DNA of 64,000 bases, from NCBI RefSeq assembly GCF_900129055.1, contig NZ_FQUZ01000002.1:57518-121517 (forward strand), written 5' to 3'. Under the pieces are notes generated by a model. That model had not been told where the DNA came from. It was given only the letters and a program-made list of their open reading frames with translations, and ran no database searches. Position 1 is the stretch's first letter, and every line of letters starts with the position of its first letter. Shown in pieces: positions 6,187 to 27,344 of this stretch. The position numbers and the translations under genes are program-made. The DNA is from Lampropedia hyalina DSM 16112. GTDB lineage: Bacteria; Pseudomonadota; Gammaproteobacteria; Burkholderiales; Burkholderiaceae_C.

Positions 6187-6744
6187 ATGACTTTGCACCC
6201 ACCCAGCCCTTGCGGGCATTCGGCCAGCCTCCCGGTCTATCAGGCCCACGCGCTGCGCAACGATGCCCGCCACCACATTCTGGTCTGCGTCGGCCTGCCC
6301 GACGCATCCGACCTGCGCTTTCTGGCAGAACTGCCGCAGCGCGTGCCACACCAGCACCACTGCCTGATGCTGGAAGACGACGGCGATGGCAACCTGCCGC
6401 CCGCCCAGACCGCGCGGCTGATGCCGCTGCTGTCCGAAGCCCGCACCGGCTGGCACCTGTACCTGTCCGGCCCGGAAGCGGGGCTGTGGCCGCTCTACGT
6501 TCAGGCCATTCAGGCGGGCATGCAGCCGCAGGAAATCAGCCTGCACCGCCACGACAGCGCGATGCGCCCGATCTACTGCGTGCACTGCGGCACACGCCAG
6601 CAGGCCGCCAGCCAGGCCCCCCAGCCCATCTGTGGCTGCTGTGGCGTGGCCCTGGAAATCCGCGACCATTTCTCCCGCGTGCAGGGAGCCTATCTGGGGG
6701 TGGTGGCGAATGCCGACCAACCGTATGCGAGGGCCAGCACATGA
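6187..6744 (+). CDS. dmmA: Dimethylamine monooxygenase small subunit, DmmA family
   Basis: A 185-residue soluble protein that matches the small subunit encoded beside haem-dependent N-demethylases. Its end carries a zinc-ribbon-like pair of cysteine knuckles (CVHCG and CGCCG, about residues 128-155), then a conserved tail with RDHFSRVQGAYLGVV. The start at 6187 is chosen for GGAG 8 nt upstream; an in-frame ATG at 6160 is possible. It overlaps the reductase gene by ATGA, so the two are translationally coupled. Subunit letters differ between published dmm systems; the symbol follows common database naming. Its exact role in electron transfer or assembly is not clear from sequence. Confidence 0.75.
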   Translation: MTLHPPSPCGHSASLPVYQAHALRNDARHHILVCVGLPDASDLRFLAELPQRVPHQHHCLMLEDDGDGNLPPAQTARLMPLLSEARTGWHLYLSGPEAGLWPLYVQAIQAGMQPQEISLHRHDSAMRPIYCVHCGTRQQAASQAPQPICGCCGVALEIRDHFSRVQGAYLGVVANADQPYARAST

Positions 6745-7700
6745 GCACGTCCAGTCCCCTCAACGTCACGGTGGCCGCCATCAGGCCCCTGACCCCGCTG
6801 GTGCGCGAGTTCACCTTCACCGCCACCGATGGCAGCCTGCTGCCGCGCTTTTCTGCGGGCAGTCACATCCAGGTGCACCTGCCGCTGGGTGACAGCGGCC
6901 GTGTGCTGCGCAATGCCTATTCGCTGGTGAGCGACCCCGGCGATGGCTCACACTACCGCATCGCGGTGCGGCGGCAGGAGGATTCGCGCGGCGGTTCGCG
7001 TTTTCTGCACGAGCAGGTGCAGCCCGGCGACCGCCTGGGCATTGGCGCACCGGCGAACCTGTTCGCGCCGCATTCGCGCGCCCGCCACCACATTCTGGTG
7101 GCAGGTGGCATCGGCATCACGCCCTTCATGGCCTATGTGCAGGAATTCGAGCGGCGCGGCGACTCCTTTGAGCTGCACCATGCCTGCCGCACCGGCCTGA
7201 CGGATGCCTACCTGAAGCACCTGCAACAGCACCTGGGCGACCGCTTCCACAGCTATGACGCAGAACACGGCAAGCCCCTGCGGCTGGAACAACTGCTGCA
7301 CGACCGACCGCTGGGCACGCATGTGTACTGCTGCGGCCCGCAACGCCTGATCGACGGTGTGCGCGATGCCGCGCGCCAGCAAGGCTGGGCGGATACCCGC
7401 GTGCACTTCGAGGCATTTGCAGCCCCCGAACCGGGGGTTCCCTTCACCGCACACCTGGCGCGCAGTCAGTGCACCGTGCAGGTGGCCAGCGACCAGAGCC
7501 TGCTGGAAGCCCTGGAGGCCGGTGGCATCGGCGTGCCCAACCTGTGCCGGGGTGGCGTGTGCGGCCAGTGCGCCACGCGCTTTCTGGACGGCGCGGTAGA
7601 GCACCGTGACCACTTCCTCTCCAGCGAGGAACGCACGCACCTGCTGATGCCCTGCGTCTCGCGCTGTGGCAGCGACCGCCCGCTTTTGCTTGATCTATAG
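6741..7700 (+). CDS. Dimethylamine monooxygenase reductase, PDR/VanB-type flavin iron-sulfur oxidoreductase
   Basis: A 319-residue phthalate-dioxygenase-reductase type protein passing electrons from NAD(P)H to the oxygenase. Domain order: ferredoxin-reductase-like flavin domain with RNAYSLVSDP (about 55-64), nucleotide-binding domain with LVAGGIGITPFMAY (about 120-133), and a C-terminal plant-type [2Fe-2S] domain with CRGGVCGQC plus a later Cys in LMPCVSR. It starts within the previous gene (ATGA overlap) and is followed after 17 bp by the haem oxygenase gene. In this context it is the electron donor for dimethylamine demethylation. Confidence 0.88.
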   Translation: MSTSSPLNVTVAAIRPLTPLVREFTFTATDGSLLPRFSAGSHIQVHLPLGDSGRVLRNAYSLVSDPGDGSHYRIAVRRQEDSRGGSRFLHEQVQPGDRLGIGAPANLFAPHSRARHHILVAGGIGITPFMAYVQEFERRGDSFELHHACRTGLTDAYLKHLQQHLGDRFHSYDAEHGKPLRLEQLLHDRPLGTHVYCCGPQRLIDGVRDAARQQGWADTRVHFEAFAAPEPGVPFTAHLARSQCTVQVASDQSLLEALEAGGIGVPNLCRGGVCGQCATRFLDGAVEHRDHFLSSEERTHLLMPCVSRCGSDRPLLLDL

Positions 7701-7717
7701 GAATAGGAGACCGCGCC

Positions 7718-8737
7718 ATGACGCTTGAATTCGCACCGTCCATCGAAACCTTCCGCGACGACTTCAGCTACCGCAACAGCCCGCGTGCGATTGCGCGCTT
7801 TCCACTCCCCTTCCCCGAAGACCGCTACATGTACTCGGTGAACATGGAACCGGCCACCTCGCGCGACCCCGGCTCCGTGTTCGAGCACCTGTTCGACATC
7901 GACGAGCACTACCGCTCCGAAATGGCCGAGCGCGCCCTGGTGCTGGAGCGCGACCCGCGCCGCAGCATCACCATGCCGCACATGCAGGAAGCCGCCTGGG
8001 ACGCACTGGAGCGCATCATGGAACAGCTCAGCCACGACTACCCGGACTGGTTCGCGCTGGAACGCCACGGCAGGGAATGCACCTGGCGCAACCGGGCACT
8101 GGGCATCGAACAATCCTTCGTGCTCGACCAGCCCGACACCCTGCCCTACCCGCCACTCGAATACATCATGCGCCAGACCCAGGGCGACATGGCCCTGCTC
8201 GACCAGCGCGAAGGCGACCTGTTCATGGATGCCGGGGTCGTCACCTGCCCGGCCGACTGGTCGCTGGCCTTCGATGCGGGCATGAGCTTCAAGCAGTGGC
8301 ACTCGCCGGTGCCGCTGGCCCACCAGATGGGCGTGTTCGACCGCGCCCTCAAATACCTGCTGAACGTGCAGGTGGGCCAGCCGGTGCGCCGCCTGAACTG
8401 GACACTCACCATCAACCCACGCCTGGACACCTCTGCCGAAACCTACCACGAATGGGGCAGTGACCGTGGCACCGTCACACCCGGCAACGCCGGCCAGAAA
8501 GTGCACCTGCGCGTGGAATTGCAACTGATGCTGCGCCTGCCGCGCAGCAACGCGCTGATGTTCGGCATCCGCACCTACCTCGCCAGCCTGGAAGAACTCG
8601 TCACCCGCCCCGGCTGGGGCCAGCGTCTGCACCGCGTCATGCGCGACCTGCCCGAGCCGATTGCCGACTACAAGGGCATCACCCGCTACCGCCCGCAACT
8701 GGTGCAGTGGCTGCGCCAGCACGACCCCGAAGCCTGA
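7718..8737 (+). CDS. Haem-dependent oxidative N-demethylase (DUF3445), dimethylamine monooxygenase catalytic subunit
   Basis: A 339-residue protein of the DUF3445 / haem-dependent oxidative N-demethylase family, the catalytic subunit of dimethylamine monooxygenase, which releases formaldehyde and methylamine. Family-like segments seen are LERDPRRSITMPHM, the LFMDAGVVTCPADWSL core and the ending HRVMRDLPEPIADYKGI. The haem ligand cannot be assigned with certainty from sequence alone. The start at 7718 has a good ribosome site (AGGAGA). It lies third in a tight four-gene run with the DmmA-type protein, the reductase and DmmD, the arrangement expected of a dmm operon. Confidence 0.88.
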   Translation: MTLEFAPSIETFRDDFSYRNSPRAIARFPLPFPEDRYMYSVNMEPATSRDPGSVFEHLFDIDEHYRSEMAERALVLERDPRRSITMPHMQEAAWDALERIMEQLSHDYPDWFALERHGRECTWRNRALGIEQSFVLDQPDTLPYPPLEYIMRQTQGDMALLDQREGDLFMDAGVVTCPADWSLAFDAGMSFKQWHSPVPLAHQMGVFDRALKYLLNVQVGQPVRRLNWTLTINPRLDTSAETYHEWGSDRGTVTPGNAGQKVHLRVELQLMLRLPRSNALMFGIRTYLASLEELVTRPGWGQRLHRVMRDLPEPIADYKGITRYRPQLVQWLRQHDPEA

Positions 8738-8806
8738 CGGCCCGGCCAGCGGCAAGCCCCCATCCCCTCTGAATCCCCTGAACCACAACCACTGGAGAAT
8801 ATCAAC

Positions 8807-9940
8807 ATGGCAACTCAATGGCGTTTTTCCGCACTCGCCGACCGGCATCGCGCCCTCGGCTCCCAACTCGAAGACTGGCTGGGCATGGGCACCGCCTGGA
8901 CTTACGACACCCCCACCAGCGAGCACTACAAGGCCATCCGCACCCAGGCCGGGCTGATGGACGTTTCCGGCCTGAAAAAAGTGCACTACGTCGGCCCGCA
9001 TGCCGAGCAACTGCTGCAATGGGCCACCACGCGCAACATCGACAAGCTCTACCCCGGCAAATCCGCCTACGTCACCTTCCTGAACGACGATGGCAAATTC
9101 ATCGACGATGGCATCGTTTACCGCACCGGCCCGAATGCCTTCATGGTGGTGCATGGCGGCGGCACCGGCTACGAGGCCCTCACCCAGGGCATACAGGGCA
9201 AGCAGGTGGCCGTGCTGTTCGACGACGACCTGCACGACCTCTCGCTGCAAGGCCCCGCAGCCGTCGATTTTCTGGCAGAGCATGTGCCCGGCATCCGCGG
9301 CCTGAACTACTTCCACCACATGCAGACCCAGCTTTTCGGCAAGCCGGTGATGATCTCGCGCACCGGCTACACCGGCGAACGCGGCTATGAAATCTTCGTC
9401 AAGGCCGCCGATGCGCCTACCGTCTGGGACAGCATCCTCGAAAAAGGCGCGGCCCACGGCATCATCGCCTGTTCGTTCACCACGCTGGACTGGCTGCGCG
9501 TGGAGAGCTACCTGCTGTTCTACCCTTTCGACAACTCCCAGTATTACCCGTTTGCCAATGAAAAGGCTGGCGACACCCTCTGGGAACTGGGGCTGGACTT
9601 CACCGTCTCGCCCGGCAAGCAGGGCTTTCGCGGTGCCGAGGAGCACTACCGCCTGAAAGGCCGGGAACGCTTCAGAATTTACGGCATCGAGATCACCGGC
9701 ACCGATCAGCCTGCGGCGGCTGGCGACACGCTCTGGAATGGCGACACGCAAGTGGGCATCATCACCGGCGGAATGCACTCGCCCCTGACGGGCCGCAACC
9801 TCGCCATTGCCCGGCTGGATGTGGCAGCCGCCGTGCCCGGCACACCACTGCGCGTCAGCGGCAGCCTGGAAGCGACCGCCACCGCCCAGCCCATGCCCTT
9901 CGACGACCCGGACAAGAAAAAGCGCACGGCCAAAGGCTGA
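8807..9940 (+). CDS. dmmD: GcvT-like aminomethyltransferase family protein, DmmD-type
   Basis: A 377-residue protein of the glycine-cleavage T-protein family. The fold is complete: an N-terminal region with GLMDVSGLKKVHYVGPHA, a middle YTGERGYEIFVK segment (about 188-199) and a C-terminal barrel-like part with GGMHSPLTGRNLAIARL. The family binds tetrahydrofolate and moves one-carbon groups. As the last gene of the dmm operon it probably captures formaldehyde from dimethylamine demethylation as methylene-tetrahydrofolate. The purU and folD genes that follow fit that role. Direct demethylation of the amine by this protein is a less favoured reading. Confidence 0.82.
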   Translation: MATQWRFSALADRHRALGSQLEDWLGMGTAWTYDTPTSEHYKAIRTQAGLMDVSGLKKVHYVGPHAEQLLQWATTRNIDKLYPGKSAYVTFLNDDGKFIDDGIVYRTGPNAFMVVHGGGTGYEALTQGIQGKQVAVLFDDDLHDLSLQGPAAVDFLAEHVPGIRGLNYFHHMQTQLFGKPVMISRTGYTGERGYEIFVKAADAPTVWDSILEKGAAHGIIACSFTTLDWLRVESYLLFYPFDNSQYYPFANEKAGDTLWELGLDFTVSPGKQGFRGAEEHYRLKGRERFRIYGIEITGTDQPAAAGDTLWNGDTQVGIITGGMHSPLTGRNLAIARLDVAAAVPGTPLRVSGSLEATATAQPMPFDDPDKKKRTAKG

Positions 9941-10027
9941 CGGCCATGCTGAACCCGCATCCCGTGCGGCACCACAGAGCCTGGTTCAGCGTCGCCTGAC
10001 ACCACTTCCCCGCCCCCTGTCATCGCT

Positions 10028-10053
10028 CCCGCCCCGACTCCGACCGGGGCGGG
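10028..10053 (+). other. GC-rich hairpin between dmmD and purU
   Basis: CCCGCCCCG and CGGGGCGGG form a perfect 9-bp stem with an 8-nt loop, 30 bp before purU. There is no T run, so it is more likely an RNA-stabilising or processing hairpin than a classical terminator. It may set the ratio of purU-folD to dmm transcript. Confidence 0.4.
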
Positions 10054-10083
10054 CTGTTCCACGCCCTTTCACCCCATACCCCC

Positions 10084-10947
10084 ATGACCCCGTCCCGCGA
10101 AAACTTCATACTCACCATCAGTTGCCCGGCCACCACCGGCATCGTGGCCGCCATCTCCACATTCCTGGCCGAGCGCGGCTGCTACATCAGCGAACTCTCC
10201 CAGTTCGACGACGAAGACACCAGCCGCTTCTTCATGCGCTGCGTCTTCCACTTCACCCGCGAAGGCGCGGACATCCAGTCCCTGCGCGAAGCCTTCGCCG
10301 ATGTCTCCGGCCACTTCGACATGGACTGGCAGGTCTTCAGCAGTGCGCAACCCATGAAAGTGCTGCTGATGGTCAGCAAGTTCGACCACTGCCTGGCCGA
10401 CCTGCTGTACCGCCGCAACAAGCACGAAATCGACATGGACATCACCGCCGTCGTCTCCAACCACCTCGACCTGCGCCCGATGGCCGAACGCGAGGGCCTG
10501 CGCTTCATCTACCTGCCCGTCACCAAAGACAACAAGACCCAGCAAGAAAAGGAGCTGCTGAAGATCGTCGAAGAAACCGGCACCGAGCTGGTGGTGCTGG
10601 CCCGCTACATGCAGATTCTTTCCGACGACCTCTGCCGCGCGCTCAGTGGCCGGGCCATCAACATCCACCACAGCTTCCTGCCCGGCTTCAAGGGAGCCAA
10701 GCCCTACCACCAGGCACACAGCCGGGGGGTCAAGCTGATCGGGGCCACCGCCCACTACGTCACCGCCGATCTGGACGAAGGCCCCATCATCGAACAGGCA
10801 GTGCAGCGCGTCGATCACAGCTACCAACCCGATGACATGGTCGCCGTGGGCCGCGCCACCGAAACCGTGGCCCTGGCCAGTGCCGTGAAGTACTACACCC
10901 AGCACCGCGTCTTCCTCAACCAGGACAAAACGGTGGTGTTCAAATGA
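10084..10947 (+). CDS. purU: Formyltetrahydrofolate deformylase
   Basis: A 287-residue PurU that hydrolyses 10-formyl-tetrahydrofolate to formate and free tetrahydrofolate. An N-terminal ACT domain (about 1-85) precedes a formyltransferase fold that contains [14 protein letters not shown], with the catalytic Asn/His, and the later catalytic Asp in TADLDEGP. Its stop overlaps the folD start by ATGA. Placed after the dmm operon with folD, it completes a folate route from methylene-tetrahydrofolate to formate and returns free folate for further demethylation. This is more specific than the general housekeeping role of PurU. Confidence 0.93.
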
Positions 10948-11816
10948 GCGCGATCCGCATCGACGGCAAGGCCGTCGCCGACACCCTGCTGGCCGAAGTC
11001 GGGCAGGACGTGGCCGGGCTGCGCCAGCAGGGCGTACACCCCGCGCTGGCCGTCATTCTGGTGGGCGACGACCCTGCCAGTGATGTCTATGTGCGCAACA
11101 AGGTGCAGCGGGCCGAGGCCGTGGGCATTCGCTCGCTCGAATACCGCCTGCCCGCCAACACCTCCGAAGCCGCACTGCTGGAGCGCGTCCAGGCACTCAA
11201 CGGGGATGCCAGCGTGCACGGCATTCTGGTGCAGATGCCGCTGCCCGCGCACATCAGCGAAGCCAGCGTGATTCAGGCCATCGCCCCGCACAAGGACGTG
11301 GACGGCTTCCACCGCGAGAACGTCGGCAGCCTGTCGCTGGGGCAGGAGAGCCTCGTGCCCTGCACCCCGGCCGGCTGTATGCGGCTGCTGCGCACCGTGC
11401 TGGGCGAAGACGGCCTCAAGGGCCTGCACGCCGTGGTGGTTGGACGCTCCAACATCGTCGGCAAGCCCATGGCCGCGCTGCTGTTGCAGGCCGATTGCAG
11501 CGTCACCGTGGTGCACTCGCGTTCGCGCGATGCCGCCGCGCTGTGCCGCCAGGCCGACATCATGGTCGCTGCCGTGGGCCGCCCGGCCATGATCGGTGCA
11601 GACTGGGTCAAACCCGGTGCCATCGTCATCGACGTGGGCATCAACCGCATCGCCACGCCCGAAGGCAAAACCCGCCTGATCGGCGACGTGGATTACCCAG
11701 CCGTCGCCCCGCTGGCCCACGCCATCACCCCCGTACCCGGCGGTGTCGGCCCCATGACGATTGCCGGACTGCTGGCCAACACCGTCAAGGCCGCCCGGCA
11801 ACAGACCGGGCACTGA
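10944..11816 (+). CDS. folD: Bifunctional methylenetetrahydrofolate dehydrogenase/cyclohydrolase
   Basis: A 290-residue FolD that oxidises 5,10-methylene-tetrahydrofolate with NADP and hydrolyses the methenyl form to 10-formyl-tetrahydrofolate. Seen: [14 protein letters not shown] with the family YxxxK-type catalytic Tyr/Lys (about 40-53), DVDGFH and PCTPAG in the middle, and the C-terminal [14 protein letters not shown] signature. It is coupled to purU by a 4-bp overlap and followed by a strong terminator. This is probably a pathway-dedicated copy; whether the genome holds another folD cannot be seen here. Confidence 0.95.
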
Positions 11817-11839
11817 AAGGACACAGCACCATCCTGTCT

Positions 11840-11913: not shown

Positions 11914-11926
11914 GCCCTGTCAGCAA

Positions 11927-12006: not shown

Positions 12007-12021
12007 AAGGGCATGATGTTC

Positions 12022-13392
12022 TCACCCCAGGTCGCGGTAGCCAATCTCGCCGTGCGAGTTCAGGTCAAGGCCATCGCGTTCGTGTTCGGCATCCACGCGC
12101 AGACCCTTGCAGCAGGCAGCGGCCACCTTGAACGCAATCCAGGCAGTGATGGCAGCGTAAACAATGCTGAATGCCATGGCGGCCAGGTTCACGCCCGATT
12201 GCTCCAGCAGGGTGCGGCCTTCCGGCAGGCCCTGACCTCCCAGCAGCGGCAGGGCGAACAGCGGGGTGAACAGGCCTCCAAAAATGCCGCCCACGCCATG
12301 CACCCCGAATACATCGAAGGCATCGTCCAGTCCGAGGCGGGGCTTGAGCCATTCCACGGCCCAGAGGCACAGCGGCCCAGCCAGCAGGCCCAGCACGATG
12401 GCCCCCATCGGCCCGACAAAACCACAGGCCGGAGTGATCGCGACCAGCCCGGCAATCGCACCGGAAACTGCCCCCAGCATACTGGGTCTGCCCCGGTGCA
12501 GCCACTCCACCAGCACCCAGCCCAGCGTGCCAGCCGCGCTGGCCAGCATGGTGTTGAGCATGATGAGCATGGCAAAGCCATTGGCCGCCAGCGCGCAGCC
12601 GCCACAGAAGCCCAGCCAGCCCACCCACAGCAGCGAGCCGCCGGTCATGCTCATCGTCAGGTTGTGCGGGGCCAGCGATACCGACGAAGTCCCCCAGCCC
12701 TGGCGGCGGCCCAGCAAGGCGGCACCGACCAGCGCGGCAATGCCCACGTTGATGTGCACCACGTTGCCCCCGGCAAAGTCCTGCGGCTCCAGCCCCAGCA
12801 CCCAGCCGCCACCCCAGGCCATGTGGGCCATCGGGATATAGTTGATGACCATCCAGACCGCCATGAACACCAGCACCGCAGAGAACTTCATGCGTTCGGC
12901 AAACCCGCCGACGATGATGGGCGGCGTGATGGCAGCAAACATCATCATGAACAGGATGTACAGGTATTCGGGGATGGTGCCCACCATCGAATCGGTGCCG
13001 ACCCCGGCGAGAAACACTTTGTCGAAGCCGCCCAGCACCGCCTGCCAGGGGCCACCGTCACTGAAGGTGAGGCTGTAGCCGAACAATGCCCACAGCACGG
13101 CCATCAGGGCGACGACGGTGAACACCTGCATCAGTATGGACAGCACGTTGCGCGCGCGGGCCAGCCCGGCATAAAAAAGGGCCAGCCCCGGCAGCATCAT
13201 CAGCAGCACGACCAGGGCACAGAGGGCGACAAAGGCGGTGTCGCCGCTGTCCAGCGCAGGCGCGGCCTGGGCCTGCGCGGGCAGGCCGATGACCATGCCC
13301 AGCAGCAGTGCGAGACTGGCATGGGCCTTGCCGCCGGGCAGGCAAGGCGGTTCGTTCTTCATGGAGACTTGGAGACGCTGGCGGGTATTCAT
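12022..13392 (-). CDS. Ammonium transporter (Amt), last gene of the tmm operon
   Basis: A 456-residue Amt/MEP channel for ammonium, and possibly methylammonium, across the inner membrane. A signal-like first segment ends near AQAAPA, then eleven predicted membrane spans follow. Family motifs seen are FYAGLARARNVLS, FAAITPPIIVGGFAERMKFSA, the DFAGGNVVHINVG signature and DVFGVHGVGGIFGG with the pore histidine. The start at 13392 has AAGGAA upstream. It follows tmm, tdm and the porin on the same strand, so it is probably co-expressed with trimethylamine breakdown. It is a paralogue of the Amt at 34788 and lacks a PII gene of its own. Confidence 0.92.
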   Translation of the reverse strand: MNTRQRLQVSMKNEPPCLPGGKAHASLALLLGMVIGLPAQAQAAPALDSGDTAFVALCALVVLLMMLPGLALFYAGLARARNVLSILMQVFTVVALMAVLWALFGYSLTFSDGGPWQAVLGGFDKVFLAGVGTDSMVGTIPEYLYILFMMMFAAITPPIIVGGFAERMKFSAVLVFMAVWMVINYIPMAHMAWGGGWVLGLEPQDFAGGNVVHINVGIAALVGAALLGRRQGWGTSSVSLAPHNLTMSMTGGSLLWVGWLGFCGGCALAANGFAMLIMLNTMLASAAGTLGWVLVEWLHRGRPSMLGAVSGAIAGLVAITPACGFVGPMGAIVLGLLAGPLCLWAVEWLKPRLGLDDAFDVFGVHGVGGIFGGLFTPLFALPLLGGQGLPEGRTLLEQSGVNLAAMAFSIVYAAITAWIAFKVAAACCKGLRVDAEHERDGLDLNSHGEIGYRDLG

Positions 13393-13434: not shown

Positions 13435-14241
13435 TCAAAAGCGGCGGCTGAGTGTGACCAGCCAGCGGGATGCAGAAGTGTCCACATGCCCGATGCGGTA
13501 GAGCGCGCGGTCGGCATTCGTGCCGGTGACGGCCAGTGCCACCGTCCAGCCTCCATCGAACCCCTTGCTGACCTGCGCCTTGTAATCGCTGAAGTCGTAG
13601 GCACCGTAGTCCTGCACCCGCTGGTGTCCGGCATGCAGGTCAATCGCCCAGCCCTGTGCCAGCGCAATGGCCAGATTCGCCTCGATGTAGCCAGAACCCT
13701 TGCTGTCGTCGCCGTGGCCCATCGAGGCAGCGTTCATGGCGAAGTAGTCGGTGAGGGTGTGCGAGTATTTGAACGTCAGCCATTTCCAGCCGACGCTGGC
13801 ATAGGCTTCCACGGTGTTGTAGGACTCCCCGGCCAGCCGTGCGCCGGGGTAGCCAAAGCGCAGCAGGCCCAGGTCGTAGGCGACATCACCGACATTGCGG
13901 GCATATCCGCCATAGACATCCAGTTCCACGGTCGCACCGGCAATCGCATCGCTGCTGAGGCTGCTGGCCCACACGCCCAGATAGGCTCCGCTGGTGTGCG
14001 CCAGATCGAAGCCACCCTGAATGGCCGGTTTTTCCTGCGAATAGTTGATGCCGCGAAACACATACTGCGAGGTGAGCGCGAGGTTGCTGTCGAGCGTGAA
14101 GGCCGGTGGCGCATCAGCGGCGTTCTGGGTCTGGGTCTGGGTCTGGGCCTGCGCGGTGCCGATGCCTGTGCAGAGCGCGAACACAGCGGCCATGACGGGA
14201 CGATGGCAGCGGTGGCGATGGTGGCCGGGGAGTGGGGGCAT
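13435..14241 (-). CDS. TorF family putative outer-membrane porin
   Basis: A 268-residue secreted protein with an N-terminal signal peptide that ends around AQA (residues 24-34). It then has a beta-strand-rich body with the family start LTSQYVFRGINYSQEKPAIQGGFD and a terminal aromatic residue (SRRF) as in outer-membrane barrels. This is the TorF/gcw_chp family of putative porins, function poorly known. AGGAG lies 7 nt before the start. It sits between tdm and amt in the trimethylamine operon and may let methylated amines through the outer membrane; this is inferred from position only. A short CAGACC-type simple repeat encodes a QTQTQTQ stretch after the signal peptide. Confidence 0.82.
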   Translation of the reverse strand: MPPLPGHHRHRCHRPVMAAVFALCTGIGTAQAQTQTQTQNAADAPPAFTLDSNLALTSQYVFRGINYSQEKPAIQGGFDLAHTSGAYLGVWASSLSSDAIAGATVELDVYGGYARNVGDVAYDLGLLRFGYPGARLAGESYNTVEAYASVGWKWLTFKYSHTLTDYFAMNAASMGHGDDSKGSGYIEANLAIALAQGWAIDLHAGHQRVQDYGAYDFSDYKAQVSKGFDGGWTVALAVTGTNADRALYRIGHVDTSASRWLVTLSRRF

Positions 14242-14288
14242 GTGGAGGCTCCTGGGGTGGTGGGGTGAATGGGTGGCGTGGGTCGGCT

Positions 14289-18284: not shown

Positions 18285-19034
18285 ATGGGCCGCCACTCCT
18301 TCCACCCACCGCCCCCGACTGCGCCCGCACCTGCAATGACCGCCCCTGTCCCCACGCCCGGCACCCCCTCGCAGCCCGATGCCGCACCCCCCGTGCGCTC
18401 GCGCTACGAAGCCCTGTCGCACGAGCTGCACGACTCCGTGGCCCAGCAACTGGGCTTTCTGGCCTTGCAGGCTCTGCGCGTGGAAAAAATGCTGGATGCC
18501 CACCCGCAGGCCCAGACCATGGTCGAGGAAATGCGGCTGGTGCTCAGCCGCGTGCAGAAACAGGTGCGCGAGATGATTACCGGCGTGCGCACCACCTTGC
18601 TGGAGGTGTCACTGCGCGAGGCATTGCAGGGAGCAGTCGAGGAGTTCTCCTGCCGCAGCAGCATGGTGTTCGACCTGGACAACCGCCTGCCCGATGGCGT
18701 ACTCTCGCCCGCCTGTGAACTCCAGGTGCTGCAAATCGTGCGCGAATCGCTGGCCAATGCCGTGCGCCACTCCCAGGCGGCACAGGTCGGCATCCGGCTC
18801 TGTCTGGATGCCGAGGGCCAGCAGGTCGATGTTTCCATCAGCGACAACGGCGTGGGCATGGCCCCCACCAGCCCACAGCCCTGCGGGGGCCACTACGGCC
18901 TGCTCATCATGCAGGAGCGTGCGCATTCGATTGGTGCATCGCTGTCGGTGCAGCCTGCCCGCACACGGGGCAGTCAAGGCCATCCCGGCACCTGCGTGCA
19001 CCTGCAAGTGCCCTTGGCGGATACCGTGCCATGA
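18285..19034 (+). CDS. NarX-type sensor histidine kinase without a sensor domain
   Basis: A 249-residue kinase of the HisKA_3/HATPase_c class that normally pairs with NarL-type regulators. The phospho-acceptor is His49 in ELHDSVAQQLGF. The ATP-binding part has ESLANAVRHSQAA (N box) and SISDNGVGM (G1 box). There is no membrane segment and no recognisable input domain; the first 36 residues are a Pro/Ala-rich tail. A second start at 18336 would remove most of it. The gene overlaps the regulator gene (ATGA), and a separate PAS-PAS protein follows, which may be the missing input module. Confidence 0.9.
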   Translation: MGRHSFHPPPPTAPAPAMTAPVPTPGTPSQPDAAPPVRSRYEALSHELHDSVAQQLGFLALQALRVEKMLDAHPQAQTMVEEMRLVLSRVQKQVREMITGVRTTLLEVSLREALQGAVEEFSCRSSMVFDLDNRLPDGVLSPACELQVLQIVRESLANAVRHSQAAQVGIRLCLDAEGQQVDVSISDNGVGMAPTSPQPCGGHYGLLIMQERAHSIGASLSVQPARTRGSQGHPGTCVHLQVPLADTVP

Positions 19035-19732
19035 CCGCCCGCGTGCGCATTCTTCTGGTGGACGACCACCCGCTGATGCGGCGCGGCATCGCCGAACTGC
19101 TGGCCAGCACCGAAGACTTCGAGGTGCTGGCCGAAGCCTCCAGCGGCCGCGAAGCCATCCACCTCGCCACCCGCCTGCACCCCGACCTGATCCTGCTCGA
19201 CCAGCACATGCCCGGCGGCCTGTCGGGCTTGCAGGTGCTCGACGAACTGCGACAACTGGAACTGCCGCTGCAAGCCGTCATCCTCACCGCCGAATTGCAG
19301 CGCGGCGAGTTTCTGGCCGCGCTGCAACTGGGCGTATCGGGCTACATCCTCAAGGATGCCGACCCCGAACTGCTGCTCACCCACCTGCGCCGCTGCCGCA
19401 ACGGCGAAATGGCCCTGAGTGACGAAATGGTGGCCCTGCTGGCCCACCGCGACAGCGCGCGCGAGGGCGACATGGCCGCGCAACTGGCCAGCCTGACCCC
19501 ACGCGAAGGCCAGACTCTGGCCCTGATTGCCAAGGGGCTGAGCAACAAGGAAATTGCCCGCGACATCGGCATCAGCGACAGCACGGTCAAGGTGTATGTC
19601 AAGAGCCTGCTGAGCAAACTGAACCTGCGCTCGCGGCTGGAACTGGCCGTCTGGGTGTACCGGAGCGCGGGCCTGAACGACAAGGACATGGACGATGGCA
19701 CAGGAACCCTCCCCCCCCGCACCCGCTGCTGA
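19031..19732 (+). CDS. NarL/LuxR-type response regulator
   Basis: A 233-residue regulator with Asp11/Asp12 and phospho-acceptor Asp57 in LILLDQHMP. A C-terminal LuxR helix-turn-helix has LTPREGQTLALIAKGLSNKEIARDIG. It is coupled to the kinase gene, so the two form a cognate pair. A C-terminal tail after LAVWVYRSAG overlaps the start of the PAS gene by 38 bp. It is a close paralogue of the orphan regulator at 5307, especially in the DNA-binding helix. Control of the divergent tmm operon is inferred from position. Confidence 0.93.
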   Translation: MTARVRILLVDDHPLMRRGIAELLASTEDFEVLAEASSGREAIHLATRLHPDLILLDQHMPGGLSGLQVLDELRQLELPLQAVILTAELQRGEFLAALQLGVSGYILKDADPELLLTHLRRCRNGEMALSDEMVALLAHRDSAREGDMAAQLASLTPREGQTLALIAKGLSNKEIARDIGISDSTVKVYVKSLLSKLNLRSRLELAVWVYRSAGLNDKDMDDGTGTLPPRTRC

Positions 19733-20492
19733 ACCGGCCCGGCCAACCGATGCAGGCTGGCAGTGGATGACCGCCCTGCCCGTCCCGGCCCTGTGCATGG
19801 ACGTGGCCGGCAATGCCGTGGCCTGCAACCCGGCCTGGAGCCGCTTCATGGGTTCGGTGCTGGCCGGACAGGATGTGATGGGCCTGTTCCACCCCGAAGA
19901 CCGCATGGCCTGGATGACGCAACTGATGGCCTGCGTGCACGCCGTGCCCCTGCCGCACACCGGGGCCGCCACAGACGAATCGGCCGCCCTGCGCCTGTTG
20001 CCACCCGGCGGGGCCGTGGCATGGTGCTCCATCGCGCTGCAACGCCATCAGGAATGGGTCTGCATGGTGGCACACGATGTCACCGGCTACCACCGCCGCG
20101 AAGCGCAGTTGCGGGCCGCCTCGCGCGGGGCATTCAGCCTGCTCAACGGCATTCCGGCCATGCTGTACCGGGGCCGCAACGACCGCAACTGGAGCATGGA
20201 AATGGTCAGCGAAGGCTGCCGCATGCTCACCGGCTACTCGCCCCAGGACATCGAACTCGAAGGCCGCCTGCACTTCAACCAGTTGATCGTGCCGCCCGAT
20301 GTGGACTATGTGTGGGACGGCGTGCAGGAAGCCCTGCTGCGCCGCCGTCCGTACCGGCTCTGGTACGCCATCACCTGTGCCGATGGCCGCATCAAACAGG
20401 TGTTTGAAATCGGCCAGGGCATCTACTCGCACAGCAACGAAGTGCTGGGCGTGGAAGGCATGATTACCGAGCGTTTCGAGCCGCCCGCGTGA
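19695..20492 (+). CDS. Stand-alone tandem PAS protein without output domain
   Basis: A 265-residue cytosolic protein with two PAS-like domains (about 25-130 and 145-260) and nothing else. The first contains MDVAGNAVACNPAWSRFMG; the second contains SMEMVSEGCRMLTGYSPQDIELEGR and a C-terminal PAC-like strand set. No kinase, GGDEF or membrane part is present. The start at 19695 overlaps the regulator gene; AAGGA lies upstream. In this operon it could be the detached sensor for the input-less kinase, binding a ligand, haem or flavin; this is inferred. It converges on fghA. Confidence 0.82.
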   Translation: MAQEPSPPAPAAEPARPTDAGWQWMTALPVPALCMDVAGNAVACNPAWSRFMGSVLAGQDVMGLFHPEDRMAWMTQLMACVHAVPLPHTGAATDESAALRLLPPGGAVAWCSIALQRHQEWVCMVAHDVTGYHRREAQLRAASRGAFSLLNGIPAMLYRGRNDRNWSMEMVSEGCRMLTGYSPQDIELEGRLHFNQLIVPPDVDYVWDGVQEALLRRRPYRLWYAITCADGRIKQVFEIGQGIYSHSNEVLGVEGMITERFEPPA

Positions 20493-20514
20493 GAACACGC
20501 CCCAAGAACGGGGT

Positions 20515-21348
20515 TTACGATCGCAGCCACCGGGCATGGTGCGCCATGTGCGCGCCGATGAAGCTGGCAATGAAGTAATAGCTGTGGTCGTAGCCGGGCC
20601 GCAGGTTCAGCTCCAGCGGATGCCCGGCCTGTTCGCACGCGGCGCGCAGACGTTCGGGCTGCAACTGGGTGGCGAGGAATTCGTCGGCCTCGCCCTGCTC
20701 CACCAGCAGCGGCAGACGTTCGGTGGCCGTGGCAATCAAGGCCACCGCATCGTGCGCCCGCCATGCGGCACGGTCTTCTCCCAGATAGGCGGCGAAGGCT
20801 TTCTGGCCCCACGGCACTTCGCTGGGAGCGACGATGGGCGAGAAGGCCGACACACTCGCATAGCGGCCCGGATGCCGCAGGGCCAGTGTCAGCGCACCGT
20901 GGCCGCCCATCGAGTGGCCGAAGATGCCCTGCCGCCCGGTGGTCTGGAAATGCGCGGCCACCAGCGCGGGCAGTTCCTCCACCACATAGTCTTCCATGCG
21001 GAAATGCGCGGCCCAGGGCGACTGCGTGGCATTCAGGTAAAAGCCCGCGCCCTGCCCCAGATCGTAGGCGGCATCGTTGGCCAGGCCCTCGCCGCGCGGG
21101 CTGGTATCGGGTGCGACGAGGATGATGCCGTGCTGCGCCGCGTACTGCTGCGCCCCGGCCTTGGTGATGAAGTTCTGCTCGGTGCAGGTCAGGCCCGAGA
21201 GCCAGTACAGCACCGGGCAGGCCTGGCCCGCCAGCGCGGCAGGCGGCAGGTAAACGCCCAGTTTCATCGGCACGCCCAGCGTGGCCGAAGCGTGTTGCCA
21301 GACTTCCTGGCGACCGCCAAAGCTGGCGTGCTGTTCGATGCGTTCCAT
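20515..21348 (-). CDS. fghA: S-formylglutathione hydrolase
   Basis: A 277-residue esterase-D family enzyme that hydrolyses S-formylglutathione to formate and glutathione, the last step of glutathione-linked formaldehyde oxidation. Catalytic Ser lies in GHSMGGHGAL, Asp in GEADEF and His in YDHSYYF; the family segment LSGLTCTEQNF is near residue 50. It starts 14 bp after the adhC stop, so frmR, adhC and fghA form one minus-strand operon. It removes formaldehyde made by Tdm and dimethylamine monooxygenase. Confidence 0.96.
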   Translation of the reverse strand: MERIEQHASFGGRQEVWQHASATLGVPMKLGVYLPPAALAGQACPVLYWLSGLTCTEQNFITKAGAQQYAAQHGIILVAPDTSPRGEGLANDAAYDLGQGAGFYLNATQSPWAAHFRMEDYVVEELPALVAAHFQTTGRQGIFGHSMGGHGALTLALRHPGRYASVSAFSPIVAPSEVPWGQKAFAAYLGEDRAAWRAHDAVALIATATERLPLLVEQGEADEFLATQLQPERLRAACEQAGHPLELNLRPGYDHSYYFIASFIGAHMAHHARWLRS

Positions 21349-21362
21349 GTGCGGCCTGCCTT

Positions 21363-22834
<1,472 letters not shown>

Positions 22835-22858
22835 GGTGACTGTGGCAAGGGCCTCTTG

Positions 22859-22877
22859 ATACTCTGGGGGAGTATAT
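22859..22877 (-). promoter_or_regulatory. FrmR/RcnR-type operator
   Basis: ATACTCTGGGGGAGTATAT has the TACT / G-tract / AGTA layout recognised by FrmR and RcnR repressors. It sits just upstream of frmR, where bound repressor would block the frmR-adhC-fghA promoter. Confidence 0.75.
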
Positions 22878-22924
22878 GGCAGAAGTCATGACACAGCCCA
22901 CTTCATCCACGCAAAGCCGCGCAA

Positions 22925-22966
22925 AAAACCGCACAGCCTGCCGTGCGATTGCACCGGCAGGCTGTG
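22925..22966 (-). terminator. Rho-independent terminator of the gmaS-mgsABC operon
   Basis: Arms at 22932-22943 and 22955-22966 form a perfect 12-bp stem (CACAGCCTGCCG) with an 11-nt loop. Read on the minus strand it is followed by CGGTTTTTTG. It lies between the mgsC stop and the frmR operator and separates the two minus-strand operons. Confidence 0.85.
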
Positions 22967-23010
22967 TGGCCTGAAAGCGTGTTTACGTTCTGAGCACGCT
23001 TGGGGTGCAA

Positions 23011-24342
23011 TCAGAGCGGCTTGCCGGGAATCCAGCCCGTTCCGGCCAGTGGCACCTGGGCCATCGCGGCCGATTCCAGCGTCAGGGCCACCAGGTCTTC
23101 CGGCTCCAGGTTGTGCAGGTGCGACTTGCCGCAGGCGCGGGCAATGACCTGTGCTTCCATGGTCAGCACCGACAGGTAGTTGGCCAGTCGCCGCCCGGCC
23201 TGCACGGGGTCGAGCCGTTTCGCCAGTTCCGGGTCTTGCGTGGTGATGCCTGCCGGGTCGCGGCCCTCGTGCCAGTCGTCGTAGGCACCGGCGGTGCTGC
23301 CAAGCTTGCGGTACTCGTCTTCGAGGTGCGGGTCGTTGTCGCCCAGTGCCACCAGCGCGGCCGTGCCGATGGCCACGGCATCCGCTCCCAGGGCCAGGGC
23401 CTTGGCCACATCGGCACCGTTGCGAATGCCACCGGAGACGATGAGCTGCACCTTGCGGTGCATGCCCAAATCCTGCAAGGCCTGCACGGCCGGGCGGATG
23501 GCCGCCAGAATCGGGATGCCGACGTGCTCGATGAACACTTCCTGCGTCGCCGCCGTGCCGCCCTGCATGCCGTCGAGCACGACCACATCGGCACCGGCTT
23601 TCACGGCCAATGCCACGTCGTAGTAGGGGCGTGTCGCGCCCACCTTGACGTAGATGGGCTTTTCCCAGTCGGTGATTTCGCGCAGTTCCAGAATCTTGAT
23701 TTCCAGGTCATCCGGCCCCGTCCAGTCCGGGTGGCGGCAGGCCGAACGCTGGTCGATGCCTTCGGGCAGGCAACGCATTCTGGCCACGCGCGGGCTGATT
23801 TTCTGGCCCAGCAACATGCCGCCGCCGCCGGGCTTGGCTCCCTGTCCGATGACGACTTCGATGGCATCGGCCTTGCGCAGGTCGTCGGGGTTCATGCCGT
23901 AGCGCGAGGGCAGGTACTGGTAAACCAGGGTCTTCGACTGGCCGCGCTCTTCCGGGGTCATGCCGCCGTCGCCAGTGGTGGTGCTGGTGCCCGCAATGCT
24001 GGCCCCGCGCCCCAATGCTTCCTTGGCCTGTGCCGACAATGCGCCAAAGCTCATGCCTGCAATGGTGACGGGCGTTTTCAGGTGGATGGGTTTTTTCGCG
24101 AAGCGCGTGCCCAGCACCACATCGGTACCGCATTTCTCGCGGTAGCCTTCGAGCGGATAGCGGCTCACGGACGCGCCCAGGAACAGCAGGTCATCGAAAT
24201 GCGGCAACTTGCGCTTGGTGCCCGCACCGCGAATGTCGTAGATGCCGGTGGCCGCCGCGCGGCGGATTTCCGACAGGGTATAGGGGTCGAAGGTGGCAGA
24301 GAACTGCGGTGCCGTTTGCGGAATGTGTTTGGATTCGCTCAT
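23011..24342 (-). CDS. mgsC: N-methylglutamate synthase subunit C (glutamate synthase-like, FMN domain)
   Basis: A 443-residue FMN-binding protein of the glutamate-synthase central-domain type. It contains the glutamate-synthase core segments SFGALSAQAKEALGRGASIAGTSTTTGDGGM and GQGAKPGGGGMLLGQKIS, and VVLDGMQGGTAAT. With MgsA and MgsB it forms N-methylglutamate synthase, which transfers the methylamine nitrogen and methyl group of gamma-glutamylmethylamide onto 2-oxoglutarate or glutamate. The start lies 1 bp after the mgsB stop. Operon context (gmaS, mgsA, mgsB, mgsC) separates it from ordinary GltB. Confidence 0.92.
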   Translation of the reverse strand: MSESKHIPQTAPQFSATFDPYTLSEIRRAAATGIYDIRGAGTKRKLPHFDDLLFLGASVSRYPLEGYREKCGTDVVLGTRFAKKPIHLKTPVTIAGMSFGALSAQAKEALGRGASIAGTSTTTGDGGMTPEERGQSKTLVYQYLPSRYGMNPDDLRKADAIEVVIGQGAKPGGGGMLLGQKISPRVARMRCLPEGIDQRSACRHPDWTGPDDLEIKILELREITDWEKPIYVKVGATRPYYDVALAVKAGADVVVLDGMQGGTAATQEVFIEHVGIPILAAIRPAVQALQDLGMHRKVQLIVSGGIRNGADVAKALALGADAVAIGTAALVALGDNDPHLEDEYRKLGSTAGAYDDWHEGRDPAGITTQDPELAKRLDPVQAGRRLANYLSVLTMEAQVIARACGKSHLHNLEPEDLVALTLESAAMAQVPLAGTGWIPGKPL

Positions 24343-24343
24343 G

Positions 24344-25036
24344 TCAGTAGGCTCCTGCGTTATCAACATGGAAGTGGTAGAGGGTGCGGGCCGAACCGTA
24401 GCAACGGAACGATGCGGGGTCGAGGTCGCCGTGGCCTGCGCGTTGCAGCAGGTCGGCCAGGATGGCACGCTCGGCTTCGCCCAGCGGCTTTTCCTCGCAG
24501 TCCGCGCCCAGGCTGGCGACCGTGCCACGCACGAAGATGCGTGCCTCGTAGAGCGAATCGCCCAGGGCCTCGCCCGCATTGCCGAGGATGACGAGGTTGC
24601 CCGCCTGCGCCATGAAGGCCGAGAAACTGCCCACCGAGCCGCCAACCACGATGTCCGCACCCTTGAGCGAGATGCCGCAGCGCAGCCCCGCGTCGCCGTC
24701 GATCACCAGCAGGCCACCCTGCGCGGTGGCTCCTGCGGCATTCGAGGCAAAGCCCTGAACGTGCACGGTGCCGCTCATCATGTTTTCGGCCACGCCCGTG
24801 CCCGCGCTGCCGGTGATGGTGACGCTGGCGTGCTGGTTCATGCCGGCGGCGTAGTAGCCGGCATGGCCGTCGATGGTGACCTGCACCGGGGCATTGAGGC
24901 CCGCCGCAATGGCGTGCGCACCGTTGGGGTTCTCGATCGTGACCTGCAAGCCGGACCGCGCCGGGGCTTCCTGGTGCAGGAACTGGTTGATTTCTCGCAG
25001 CGGCGTGGCTGCCAGATCGAAGATCAGACTTTCCAT
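24344..25036 (-). CDS. mgsB: N-methylglutamate synthase subunit B (GXGXG domain protein)
   Basis: A 230-residue protein made only of the GXGXG right-handed beta-helix found at the C-terminus of glutamate synthase large subunits. The repeats GHAGYYAAGMN, GSAGTGVAENM, GDAGLRCGIS and GNAGEALGDS are visible. It is the structural subunit of N-methylglutamate synthase, between the amidotransferase and FMN subunits. It overlaps mgsA by 13 bp and is separated from mgsC by 1 bp, so the three are tightly coupled. Confidence 0.92.
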   Translation of the reverse strand: MESLIFDLAATPLREINQFLHQEAPARSGLQVTIENPNGAHAIAAGLNAPVQVTIDGHAGYYAAGMNQHASVTITGSAGTGVAENMMSGTVHVQGFASNAAGATAQGGLLVIDGDAGLRCGISLKGADIVVGGSVGSFSAFMAQAGNLVILGNAGEALGDSLYEARIFVRGTVASLGADCEEKPLGEAERAILADLLQRAGHGDLDPASFRCYGSARTLYHFHVDNAGAY

Positions 25037-25932
25037 ACGTACATCTCCTCGGGAGCGGGTTCAAAGACATGGGCGTGGGCCACACCCGGCAGGTGCGCCA
25101 GCGAGCGGAACTCGGAGGCAATGGCAACGTAGTCGTCGCTCTCGGCCACCACGGCGGGCTTGCAGGCGAAGGGGTCACGGATCAACGCCAGTTCGGTGGG
25201 CGTGCCCATCAGGAACGTGTAGAAGCCATCGAGCACCTCGAAGCCTTTTTGCAGGGCTTCCTTGAGTTCGTCGCCTTCGCGCAGTCGCCACTCCAGAAAG
25301 CGCGTGGCGGCCTCGGTGTCGTTGTCGGTGTCGAACGCGATGCCGTGCGGGGCCAGCATGCGGCGGATGGCGTAGGGGTTGGAGAGCGAACCGTTGTGTA
25401 CCAGGCAGAAGTCCTCCCCGGCGGTGAACGGGTGGGCGCGGTCGGGCGTGACGGCCGATTCGGTCGCCATGCGGGTGTGGCCCACCAGATGCGTGCCCTG
25501 GAAGTCGGCAAAGCCATACCGCGCGGCCACTTCGGCGGGCGTGCCGATATCCTTGTACAGGTCGATGCTGCGGCCTGCCGAGAACACCTTCAGCAGCGGC
25601 TGGTAGCCCTGCAACCACTGGCGCACGGTCTGCGGCTCGATGGCGAACGAGAGGATGCCGTGGTTGCCCTTGGCCTCCACCTGTGCCTTGGCGTGCAGGT
25701 CCTGGTTGAGCGCGCTGACCAGCTCCTGCCAGTCGTAGCGGTCACCGCCAGCCACATAGCCCGCGAACACGCTGAGCTTGCGCCGCCCCTGTGGCAAGGG
25801 CGCGGTGAACACGGCCAGCCCGGCCGAATCGGGGCCGCGCTCGGTCATGCCGATCAGCATCGGCACCATAAGCGATCCGAGCTGCTCGCGCAGCGCGGGG
25901 TTCTTGATGAGTAATCCAACGATTCCACACAT
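25024..25932 (-). CDS. mgsA: N-methylglutamate synthase subunit A (class II glutamine amidotransferase)
   Basis: A 302-residue class II (Ntn-type) amidotransferase. It starts MCGIVGLL, so Cys1 is the nucleophile after Met removal; this fixes the start at 25932. Further family parts are MTERGPDSAG and GHTRMATES, and the LVHNGSLSN segment. In this operon it releases methylamine from gamma-glutamylmethylamide, replacing glutamine as substrate. It starts 14 bp after gmaS. Confidence 0.93.
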   Translation of the reverse strand: MCGIVGLLIKNPALREQLGSLMVPMLIGMTERGPDSAGLAVFTAPLPQGRRKLSVFAGYVAGGDRYDWQELVSALNQDLHAKAQVEAKGNHGILSFAIEPQTVRQWLQGYQPLLKVFSAGRSIDLYKDIGTPAEVAARYGFADFQGTHLVGHTRMATESAVTPDRAHPFTAGEDFCLVHNGSLSNPYAIRRMLAPHGIAFDTDNDTEAATRFLEWRLREGDELKEALQKGFEVLDGFYTFLMGTPTELALIRDPFACKPAVVAESDDYVAIASEFRSLAHLPGVAHAHVFEPAPEEMYVWKV

Positions 25933-25946
25933 GGGGTTGCTTCCTT

Positions 25947-27344
25947 TCAATAAAACTCAAGGTACTGCTTGATTTCCCACTCCGAGACATGGCGTTGGTA
26001 TTCCACCCACTCCATGCGCTTGAGCCGGAGAAACTCATGGGCCACCGGGCCGAGTGCATCGCAGATCAGCGTGTCGGCCTCCAGGGCATCGAGCGCGATC
26101 ACCAGGCTTTGCGGCAGCAGGCCGATGCCCGCCTCGCTCAACTGCTGCGCGCTCCAGTCGTACAGGTTCACGTTGCGCGGCTCACCCGGATCGAGTCGGC
26201 GTTCGATGCCGTCCAGCCCGGCTGCAATCACGGCGGCGGTGGCCAGGTACGGGTTGGCGGAACCATCGGGCAGGCGCAACTCCAGCCGCCCCTTGGGCAC
26301 GCGGATCATGCTGGAGCGGTTGTTGTCGCCATAGCTGATGTAGGCCGGTGCCCAGGTCGCGCCGGTGAGCGAACGCCCCACCACCAGCCGCTTGTAGGAA
26401 TTGACCGACGGTGCGCACAGGGCCGCCAGCGCGGGAGCGTGTGCCAGCAGGCCACCGAGGAAGTGATAGGCCATTTCCGACAGGTGCAGCCCGCGCGGGT
26501 CGGACTTGTCCTCGAACAGGTTGCGCTGGCCATCGCCAATCGACAGGTGCATGTGCATGCCATTGCCGGGCCGGTTGGAGAACGGCTTGGGCATGAACGA
26601 GCAGATGTAGCCCAGTTCGTTGGCAATCTCGCTGGCCGCCATCTTGAAGAACACGAAGTGGTCGGCCGAAGTCAGGCAGTCCGCGTAGGTGAAGTTCAAC
26701 TCGAACTGGCCGTTCGCGTCTTCGTGGTCGATCTGATAGACATCGATGCCCACCGCACGCATGCCGTTGGAGAGCCGCTCCAGAAACTCGCGGATGCGCG
26801 ACAGCCCCTTGTAGTCGTAGCAGGGCTTGGCCAGCGTGTCGCTGGGGTCGGCGGGCAGCAGGCCGCCATCCTCGCCCCGGCGCAGCAGCGAGAATTCCGG
26901 CTCCAGACCGCTGAACAGCGTCCAGCCGCGCTCGGCCAGCCGGGCCACCTGCTGCTTGAGCGCGACGCGGCTGTCGTAGGCCCAGGGCCTGCCTTCCACA
27001 TGGCCATCGCAGACGATGCGGGCCAGCCCCGGCTGCCAGGGCACGGTGGTGAGCGTGGGCAGATCGCCCACCGCCATGTAATCGGGGCCGTGCGGCTCAA
27101 TGCCCATGCCCCAGATGGCAAAACCGGCAAAGCCTGCCCCCGCCTTCAGCACCGAAGGCAGGTGCGACACGGGCACGGACTTGGCCTTGGCCACCCCGTG
27201 AATGTCCACAAACTGCGCCAGCACATACGAAATGCCACTGGCCTGCAAATACGCCTGCGCCGCCTCGACATTGCTGAAGCGGGGAGGAACCACCAGCTCA
27301 CCTGGCGGCGTTCTTACCAGATGCGGGGTCAAATCGGTTTTCAC
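25947..27344 (-). CDS. gmaS: Gamma-glutamylmethylamide synthetase (glutamine synthetase family)
   Basis: A 465-residue glutamine-synthetase-type enzyme that joins methylamine to glutamate with ATP. The catalytic barrel is complete: [10 protein letters not shown] (metal-binding Glu), [15 protein letters not shown], the ATP/His region [12 protein letters not shown] and [30 protein letters not shown] start at 27344 is chosen because AAGGAG precedes it; the nearby ATG is out of frame. It leads gmaS-mgsABC, which separates it from ordinary GlnA, and has a sigma-54 promoter at 27425. GmaS is the entry step of the N-methylglutamate route for methylamine. Confidence 0.94.

Follow-up and report, generated by a model that had tools for sequence, protein, structure and literature searches.

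The window analysed here, 64,000 nucleotides of Lampropedia hyalina DSM 16112 (contig NZ_FQUZ01000002.1, positions 57,518–121,517 of the forward strand), carries a block of genes predicted to convert trimethylamine (TMA) to N-methylglutamate. MgdABCD, which usually takes the pathway further, was not found in the genome. We propose that its place is taken by neighboring genes for a flavin adenine dinucleotide (FAD) oxidoreductase of the SoxB/MgdA superfamily (hereafter DAO), an electron transfer flavoprotein (ETF; EtfA and EtfB), the deformylase HutG and the bicupin protein HutD. DAO, EtfAB and HutG would together stand in for MgdABCD by way of N-formylglutamate. We assign this reading, which rests on sequence comparison, a probability of roughly 0.6.

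An earlier note on this DNA had described the genes at 6187–27344 as a self-contained island. Those it named (tmm, tdm, a dmm set, gmaS, mgsABC, folD/purU and frmR-adhC-fghA) are all open frames with family matches, the order of steps from TMA to N-methylglutamate holds, and the gene block is genuine, far beyond chance. The note passed over an amtB gene, a TorF-type porin and a regulatory trio in the same range. Within that range, however, it is not self-contained: its genes stop at N-methylglutamate, and searches of the genome turned up neither SoxD nor a full-length SoxA. Genes just past position 27344 most likely supply the missing step, and the block of interest was taken as 6187–36489.

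Proposed pathway

TMA would be oxidized to its N-oxide (TMAO) by Tmm, TMAO converted to dimethylamine (DMA) by Tdm, and DMA to methylamine by DmmABC/DmmD; GmaS would then form gamma-glutamylmethylamide, and MgsABC N-methylglutamate. From here DAO rather than MgdABCD would act, passing electrons to EtfAB and onward to ubiquinone through the ETF-ubiquinone oxidoreductase (ETF-QO). A first oxidation would give the N-methylene iminium or its hydrate, and a second, of the hydrate, N-formylglutamate. HutG would split this into formate and glutamate, while HutD may bind or sense it. The released glutamate would return to MgsABC, and a tetrahydrofolate-binding subunit would be unnecessary here. Where an amine oxidoreductase, ETF, HutD and HutG occur in genomes with mgs and no histidase, the simplest reading is a route from N-methylglutamate through N-formylglutamate to formate and glutamate. 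Comparative genomics supports well the role of DAO as the N-methylglutamate dehydrogenase. Support is weaker for the N-formyl intermediate, which we infer, along with the substrate and acceptor of DAO, the second oxidation and the role of HutD. A separate candidate, the GcvT-like DmmD as folate partner of DAO, was set aside, because no dmm, tmm or tdm homologue was seen in 57 kb around the DAO gene of another genome (G577, the rest of which was unsearched), so DmmD need not adjoin DAO.

The chances seem to us evenly balanced for a broader proposal, namely that this is a second, non-orthologous N-methylglutamate pathway, in which a four-electron, ETF-linked oxidation to N-formylglutamate and a dedicated HutG yield formate without free formaldehyde or folate. 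Part of the same proposal, and held equally lightly, is that this form uses borrowed histidine-pathway parts and replaces MgdABCD in 10 of the 50 mgsC genomes of the order sampled.

Absence of MgdABCD from the source genome

The source assembly (G000) comprises 3.18 Mb in 58 contigs, with 99.14% completeness. A profile search for SoxD returned no match in it. The SoxA model gave 14 matches; those above 34 bits were confined to the GcvT parts of Tdm and DmmD, and no full-length SoxA-type subunit was found. The SoxD search was sensitive, scoring none of 14 control genomes but 19 of 200 genomes of the family sample and 68 of 399 of the order sample. As far as the SoxD and SoxA searches show, the usual MgdABCD step is not found in this genome.

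Both samples include the source genome. The order was taken as Burkholderiales by way of Lampropedia cohaerens (Comamonadaceae, Burkholderiales), whose Tdm is the nearest found in the named genome collection (73%). MgsC was present in nine genomes of the family sample and 42 of the order sample, giving 50 distinct mgsC genomes with the source shared; MgsC-like matches in G082 and G115 (39–40% identity) were taken as other glutamate synthases and excluded from the counts.

The DAO gene set

On the minus strand the genes follow the order DAO-etfB-etfA-hutD, with LysR-hutG divergent (28864–34640 in all). DAO (31372–32556) matches PF01266 and has SoxB-type relatives in the PDB, namely 2gag_B, a sarcosine oxidase beta subunit (7e-34), and the Pyrococcus chain 1y56_B (3.6e-42). 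It falls below the cut-offs of all five NCBIfam families listed. Against the soxB family TIGR01373 it scores 131 bits (cut-off 529), and the MgdA of G400 likewise falls short with 483. DAO and MgdA are 26–27% identical.

The two groups differ at the column of His173 (2gag_B chain numbering; first His of KHDHVAW), which we take to be the covalent anchor of flavin mononucleotide (FMN) in the sarcosine oxidase beta subunit. This position is His in all five MgdA sequences and Ala in all 18 DAO sequences, the G585 row having been left out as a wrong-frame reading. Ala here would fit an enzyme that is no longer at the alpha–beta FMN interface and needs another acceptor, in this case ETF. The Arg of IRSNY/LRTHY and the Lys of GFK, presumably carboxylate ligands, are kept in both DAO and MgdA; 2gag_B has both motifs and 1y56_B only the Arg.

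Downstream of DAO lie etfB (30526–31281; PF01012, 1e-36) and etfA (29529–30482; ETF_alpha and ETF domains), followed by hutD (28864–29532), all on the minus strand. HutD matches PF05962 (1.5e-35; 123 bits against a gathering cut-off of 25) and the HutD structure 5fcc (2.5e-10); its probable start is a TTG overlapping the etfA stop. An open frame antisense to hutD (28915–29607, plus strand) was rejected: both strands are similar in relatives, and the minus strand has the better matches as well as the HutD domain. On the plus strand, a LysR regulator of uncertain start (32692–33822; PF03466, PF00126) precedes hutG (33819–34640), whose product is assigned as N-formylglutamate deformylase (TIGR02017, 361 bits; equivalog cut-off 279).

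DAO replaces SoxD across mgsC genomes

DAO is present in 10 of the 50 mgsC genomes (G000, G033, G103, G137, G138, G167, G185, G256, G434 and G577). SoxD was found in 37 of the 40 that lack DAO (36 in the order sample plus G059) and in only one of the ten that have it (Fisher p 8e-7, with G256 counted as both). The exception, G256, carries SoxD on a different contig from mgs. In 29 of the 36 order-sample genomes SoxD lies on the mgs contig, 6.8–8.1 kb off from start to start, and in seven on another contig; the G558 match is partial. Within the family sample DAO occurs in seven of nine mgs genomes compared with three of 191 others (p 2e-9). Neither mgsC nor DAO has a match in the two genomes sampled from the source's own genus.

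The fetched DAO stretch includes etfB in 8/10 genomes with both DAO and mgs. Similar sets also occur where no close mgsC is present: G259 has hutD (a weak match), etfB, etfA, ETF-QO, hutG and DAO in one stretch. In G335, DAO is accompanied by hutD, etfBA, LysR and hutG, with no hutH.

HutG and HutD accompany DAO

HutG scored above its cut-off in all 19 DAO genomes, including all ten that also have mgs, and in one of eight without DAO (G059; 27 genomes searched). Eleven of the 50 genomes with mgs have HutD: all ten with DAO and one of the 40 others, again G059 (two-sided p 1e-9 for co-occurrence of HutD and DAO). In G059, contig C102 has hutD flanked by hutH and hutG, and HutH is above its cut-off there too. 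A rough count by genus gave 10/10 versus 1/15 (p 3e-6), three genomes with neither DAO nor SoxD being excluded. HutH had no match in the source genome and was above its cut-off in none of the ten DAO+mgs genomes, hutU and hutI not having been searched; with no hutH match in the source genome, use of its HutG for histidine was set aside.

Gene placement points the same way. Each of these ten genomes has HutD and HutG within its DAO or mgs locus. HutG is at most 1.3 kb from DAO in nine and about 20 kb off in G256, beside a LysR gene and near mgs. HutD follows etfA or DAO in nine; in G137, where the contig with DAO breaks off within etfB, it is on the contig with mgs. Five mgd-type clusters (G059, G224, G270, G313 and G400) showed neither HutD nor HutG in the stretches examined.

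A tree of 23 HutG sequences brings together 11 of the 13 linked to DAO or mgs, away from the ten others. One group (support 88/89) consists of these 11, contributed by the ten DAO+mgs genomes and G335; eight of the ten other sequences make up a second (support 99/98). Linkage requires two changes on the tree, compared with 7.8 in shuffles. The available text of PMC12772324 describes HutG as formylglutamate amidohydrolase, and that of PMC9800807, which mentions both N-methylglutamate and hutG, treats it as a formimidoylglutamase tied to metformin plasmids; the methylamine user in that paper is listed with MgdABCD.

The HutD bicupin is presumably a binder of N-formylglutamate.

Weighing the proposal against alternatives

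Several observations weigh against the replacement of MgdABCD by DAO, EtfAB and HutG. The chemistry is one, as oxidation by four electrons would be unusual in a SoxB-like enzyme, and to our knowledge the function of HutD is unsettled. The SoxA search placed no control genome above its cut-off either. Three mgsC genomes, G171, G341 and G505 (83, 84 and 91% complete), have neither DAO nor SoxD; some sampled genomes are incomplete, and all are mutually related rather than independent. Among the ten DAO+mgs genomes, G434 and G103 showed no etfB in the stretch around DAO, that of G033 and G138 lies beyond amt and P-II genes, and G103 has a HutH-like match of 405 bits, below the cut-off of 539. In the HutG tree, the linked and unlinked sequences of G259 and G302 (four in all) stand outside both groups. 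Finally, no close mgsC was found in nine of the 19 DAO genomes. Eight of these nine have hutH above its cut-off, and in six (G082, G090, G118, G509, G576 and G585) neither HutG nor HutD was found in the stretch fetched around DAO, which is why the DAO family may have further substrates.

The strongest competing explanation, which we consider unlikely, shares the dehydrogenase assignment and differs in the products. DAO with ETF would release formaldehyde and glutamate, the formaldehyde passing to frmR-adhC-fghA and tetrahydrofolate, and HutG and HutD would clear N-formylglutamate as a side-product. The presence of adhC-fghA-frmR and purU-folD within the same block speaks for it, as does the single two-electron oxidation that SoxB-like enzymes normally perform. 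Yet the closely placed HutG and HutD in every DAO+mgs genome would be much for a clean-up role, and the five mgd-type stretches examined showed neither protein.

It is more doubtful still that the DAO-etf-hutD-hutG set serves another compound, such as a different N-methyl amino acid or something related to histidine, leaving N-methylglutamate to an unrecognized enzyme elsewhere. The DAO genomes without a close mgsC, nearly all with hutH, would agree with this, but the concentration of DAO in mgs genomes of the family sample, the lack of SoxD in nine of the ten DAO+mgs genomes and the lack of hutH above cut-off in all ten argue against it.

An ordinary cluster of the Ruegeria pomeroyi type with mgd in an unassembled part of the source genome would suit its 58 contigs and 99.14% completeness and the match of Tmm to MgsABC with the known pathway, but is not credible, because the same gap recurs in so many assemblies: SoxD was likewise not found in eight of the nine other DAO+mgs genomes, and in G256 it is on another contig than mgs.

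Comparison with known systems

The claim in the earlier note that the block is unusually complete fails on comparison of gene order: R. pomeroyi DSS-3 has the whole aerobic TMA pathway, mgdABCD included, encoded in one cluster at SPO1548-1588, according to the text available from PMC13390433. That text and the portion available of PMC5520151 describe dmmDABC, gmaS-mgsABC and mgdABCD as each co-transcribed. Shared with the window are tmm, tdm, the dmm genes, gmaS and mgsABC in one region; the difference is mgdABCD, for which no SoxD or full-length SoxA counterpart was found here. Neither of the R. pomeroyi regulators TmaR (AraC) and TmoR (GntR) appears among the genes annotated in the block, beyond which no search for them was made. 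The TMAO transporter tmoXWV, induced with the R. pomeroyi cluster and presumably placed within it, is likewise not among the annotated block genes, no genome search having been made. The block here instead carries two Amt-family transporters, a trio of kinase, NarL-type and PAS proteins, and regulators of the XRE-cupin and LysR kinds. A complete block of TMA genes is thus not new in itself; the new part, as we propose, is the DAO set replacing MgdABCD.

The DAO set resembles MgdABCD (mgdABCD in Methyloversatilis, soxBDAG in Methylocella) in its proposed substrate, in the return of glutamate and in the membership of DAO in the MgdA superfamily. It differs in that no SoxD or full-length SoxA partner was found, DAO lacks the FMN-anchoring His, and ETF, HutG and HutD are attached. 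Sarcosine oxidase beta (2gag) and Pyrococcus 1y56 belong to the same FAD amine oxidoreductase family, and DAO keeps the Arg and GFK-Lys of 2gag_B. With the histidine hut pathway the DAO set shares members of the HutG and HutD families. Unlike in that pathway, no histidase scores above cut-off in the ten DAO+mgs genomes, hutG and hutD adjoin an amine oxidoreductase, and linked HutG proteins form a tree group of their own.

Methylotrophic Proteobacteria are known to oxidize methylamine by two routes, one of them the N-methylglutamate pathway, whose presence in a genome is recognized by gmaS, mgs and mgd (PMC5023228, in the text available). Genomes with the DAO replacement would score as incomplete for it. 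MgdABCD is predicted to yield methylene-tetrahydrofolate (PMC5023235, available part), and a figure legend in PMC5023228 draws formaldehyde as the branch point for Methylobacterium extorquens. Should N-formylglutamate prove to be the intermediate, one-carbon units would instead leave as formate, skipping formaldehyde, in a new C1 route. The proposal for DAO also gives HutG and HutD testable roles outside histidine breakdown. In a literature search that mostly did not reach subscription papers, no paper joining N-methylglutamate with formylglutamate was found, and no alternative N-methylglutamate dehydrogenase appeared among the titles listed or in the available text of PMC5023228, PMC5023235 and PMC8292978.

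Genomic setting and possible transfer

As for the block being an island, the term finds some support. Its left border is holA (3633–4703; TIGR01128, 179 bits, cut-off 80) and its right border lptE (36576–37085; PF04390), both on the minus strand like leuS (from 37124); lptE lies 31.9 kb from holA. Since nadD-holA-lptE-leuS are contiguous in Escherichia coli K-12, the parting of leuS-lptE from holA fits an insertion. No mobility gene was seen among the annotated open reading frames and no tRNA gene, and the borders at 4601–5400 and 36301–36700 share no 13-base word. The G+C content of the block (0.65–0.68) is only slightly higher than that of its flanks (0.63).

MgsC is 95% identical to that of G577 and 92% to those of G224, G270 and G313, all of other families, compared with 72–74% within its own family; being closer to other families than to its own suggests that mgsC was acquired by transfer. 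G224, G270 and G313 themselves carry SoxD close to mgs, and DAO has no match in them. Their loci (L073–L075) are only about 63–71% alike to the source in GmaS and MgsA and 77–79% in MgsB, despite the 92% in MgsC, a contrast that hints at exchange within the operon.

L. cohaerens keeps the TMA/DMA half in the same order, with identities of 86% for tmm, 75% for tdm and 84% for dmmD.

Genes of the block and neighboring features

The likely starts of dmmA (6187) and gmaS (27344) coincide with the ends of the block as first described; the starts given for dmmB, tdm, fghA and hutD are likely ones too. The block opens on the plus strand with dmmA, a dimethylamine monooxygenase subunit (6187–6744; PF22289; NF041259, 94 bits, cut-off 60). 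Next come dmmB, a ferredoxin-type reductase subunit (6741–7700; Fer2 and DmmA-like_N in the longer frame 5739–7700) lying between dmmA and the HODM gene, the dmmC-type heme subunit itself (7718–8737; HODM_asu-like, PF11927, 2.9e-71) and the GcvT-like dmmD (8807–9940; GCV_T, 2.8e-58). Folate enzymes follow, purU (10084–10947; TIGR00655) and folD (10944–11816; PRK14188), both above cut-off.

On the minus strand lie amtB1, of the ammonium transporter family (12022–13392; TIGR00836, above cut-off), a TorF-family putative porin (13435–14244; TIGR02001, 166 bits, cut-off 47), the TMAO demethylase gene tdm (14289–16628; NF053776, 1143 bits, cut-off 1100) and the TMA monooxygenase gene tmm (16630–18057; NF058570, 816 bits, cut-off 675). 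Past the trio described below, the minus strand continues with fghA (20515–21348; TIGR02821, 402 bits, cut-off 282), adhC (21363–22475; TIGR02818, 731 bits, cut-off 544) and frmR (22508–22834; PF02583; PRK11352, 123 bits, just below the cut-off of 133). Then follow mgsC (23011–24342; PF01645, Glu_synthase, 1.1e-91, with close homologues in sampled genomes), mgsB (24344–25036; PF01493, GXGXG), mgsA (25024–25932; GATase_6/7) and gmaS (25947–27344; TIGR03105, 639 bits, cut-off 470).

The regulatory trio, on the plus strand, consists of a NarQ/NarX-like histidine kinase core with no sensor domain matched (18285–19034; HisKA_3, HATPase_c), a NarL-type response regulator (19031–19732; Response_reg and GerE) and a PAS protein (19695–20492; PF08447). 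It adjoins dmm (HODM) genes or tmm in the window, in L. cohaerens and in G185, G256, G224 and G270, of which two are of the DAO type and two of the mgd type. Its coordinates are 6085–8226 in locus L005, 11699–14557 in L032, 11461–14736 in L110, 1442–5323 in L106 and 1851–5879 in L108. The trio is a candidate methylated-amine sensor system instead of TmaR/TmoR. A second NarL-type response regulator (5307–5957) is divergent from dmmA and has a counterpart at the same place in L. cohaerens.

Beyond gmaS, an XRE-cupin regulator (27505–28122, plus strand; HTH_3 and Cupin_2) adjoins that gene in all ten DAO+mgs genomes, and a homologue lies near mgd genes in three of the five mgd-type clusters examined (G400, G059 and G313). 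A MaoC-like hydratase (28306–28758) separates the regulator from hutD. At the far end, on the plus strand, are amt2, again of the ammonium transporter family (34788–36098; TIGR00836, above cut-off), and a P-II protein (36145–36489; PRK10665, 165 bits, below the cut-off of 181).

Outside the block, an NtaA/DmoA-family FMN monooxygenase (45719–47275) adjoins a methionine-type ABC transporter. A cluster for the use of gamma-aminobutyrate (GABA; 50605–55266) encodes GABA transaminase, GABA permease and succinate-semialdehyde dehydrogenase, with a MocR-type regulator adjoining at 48984–50456.

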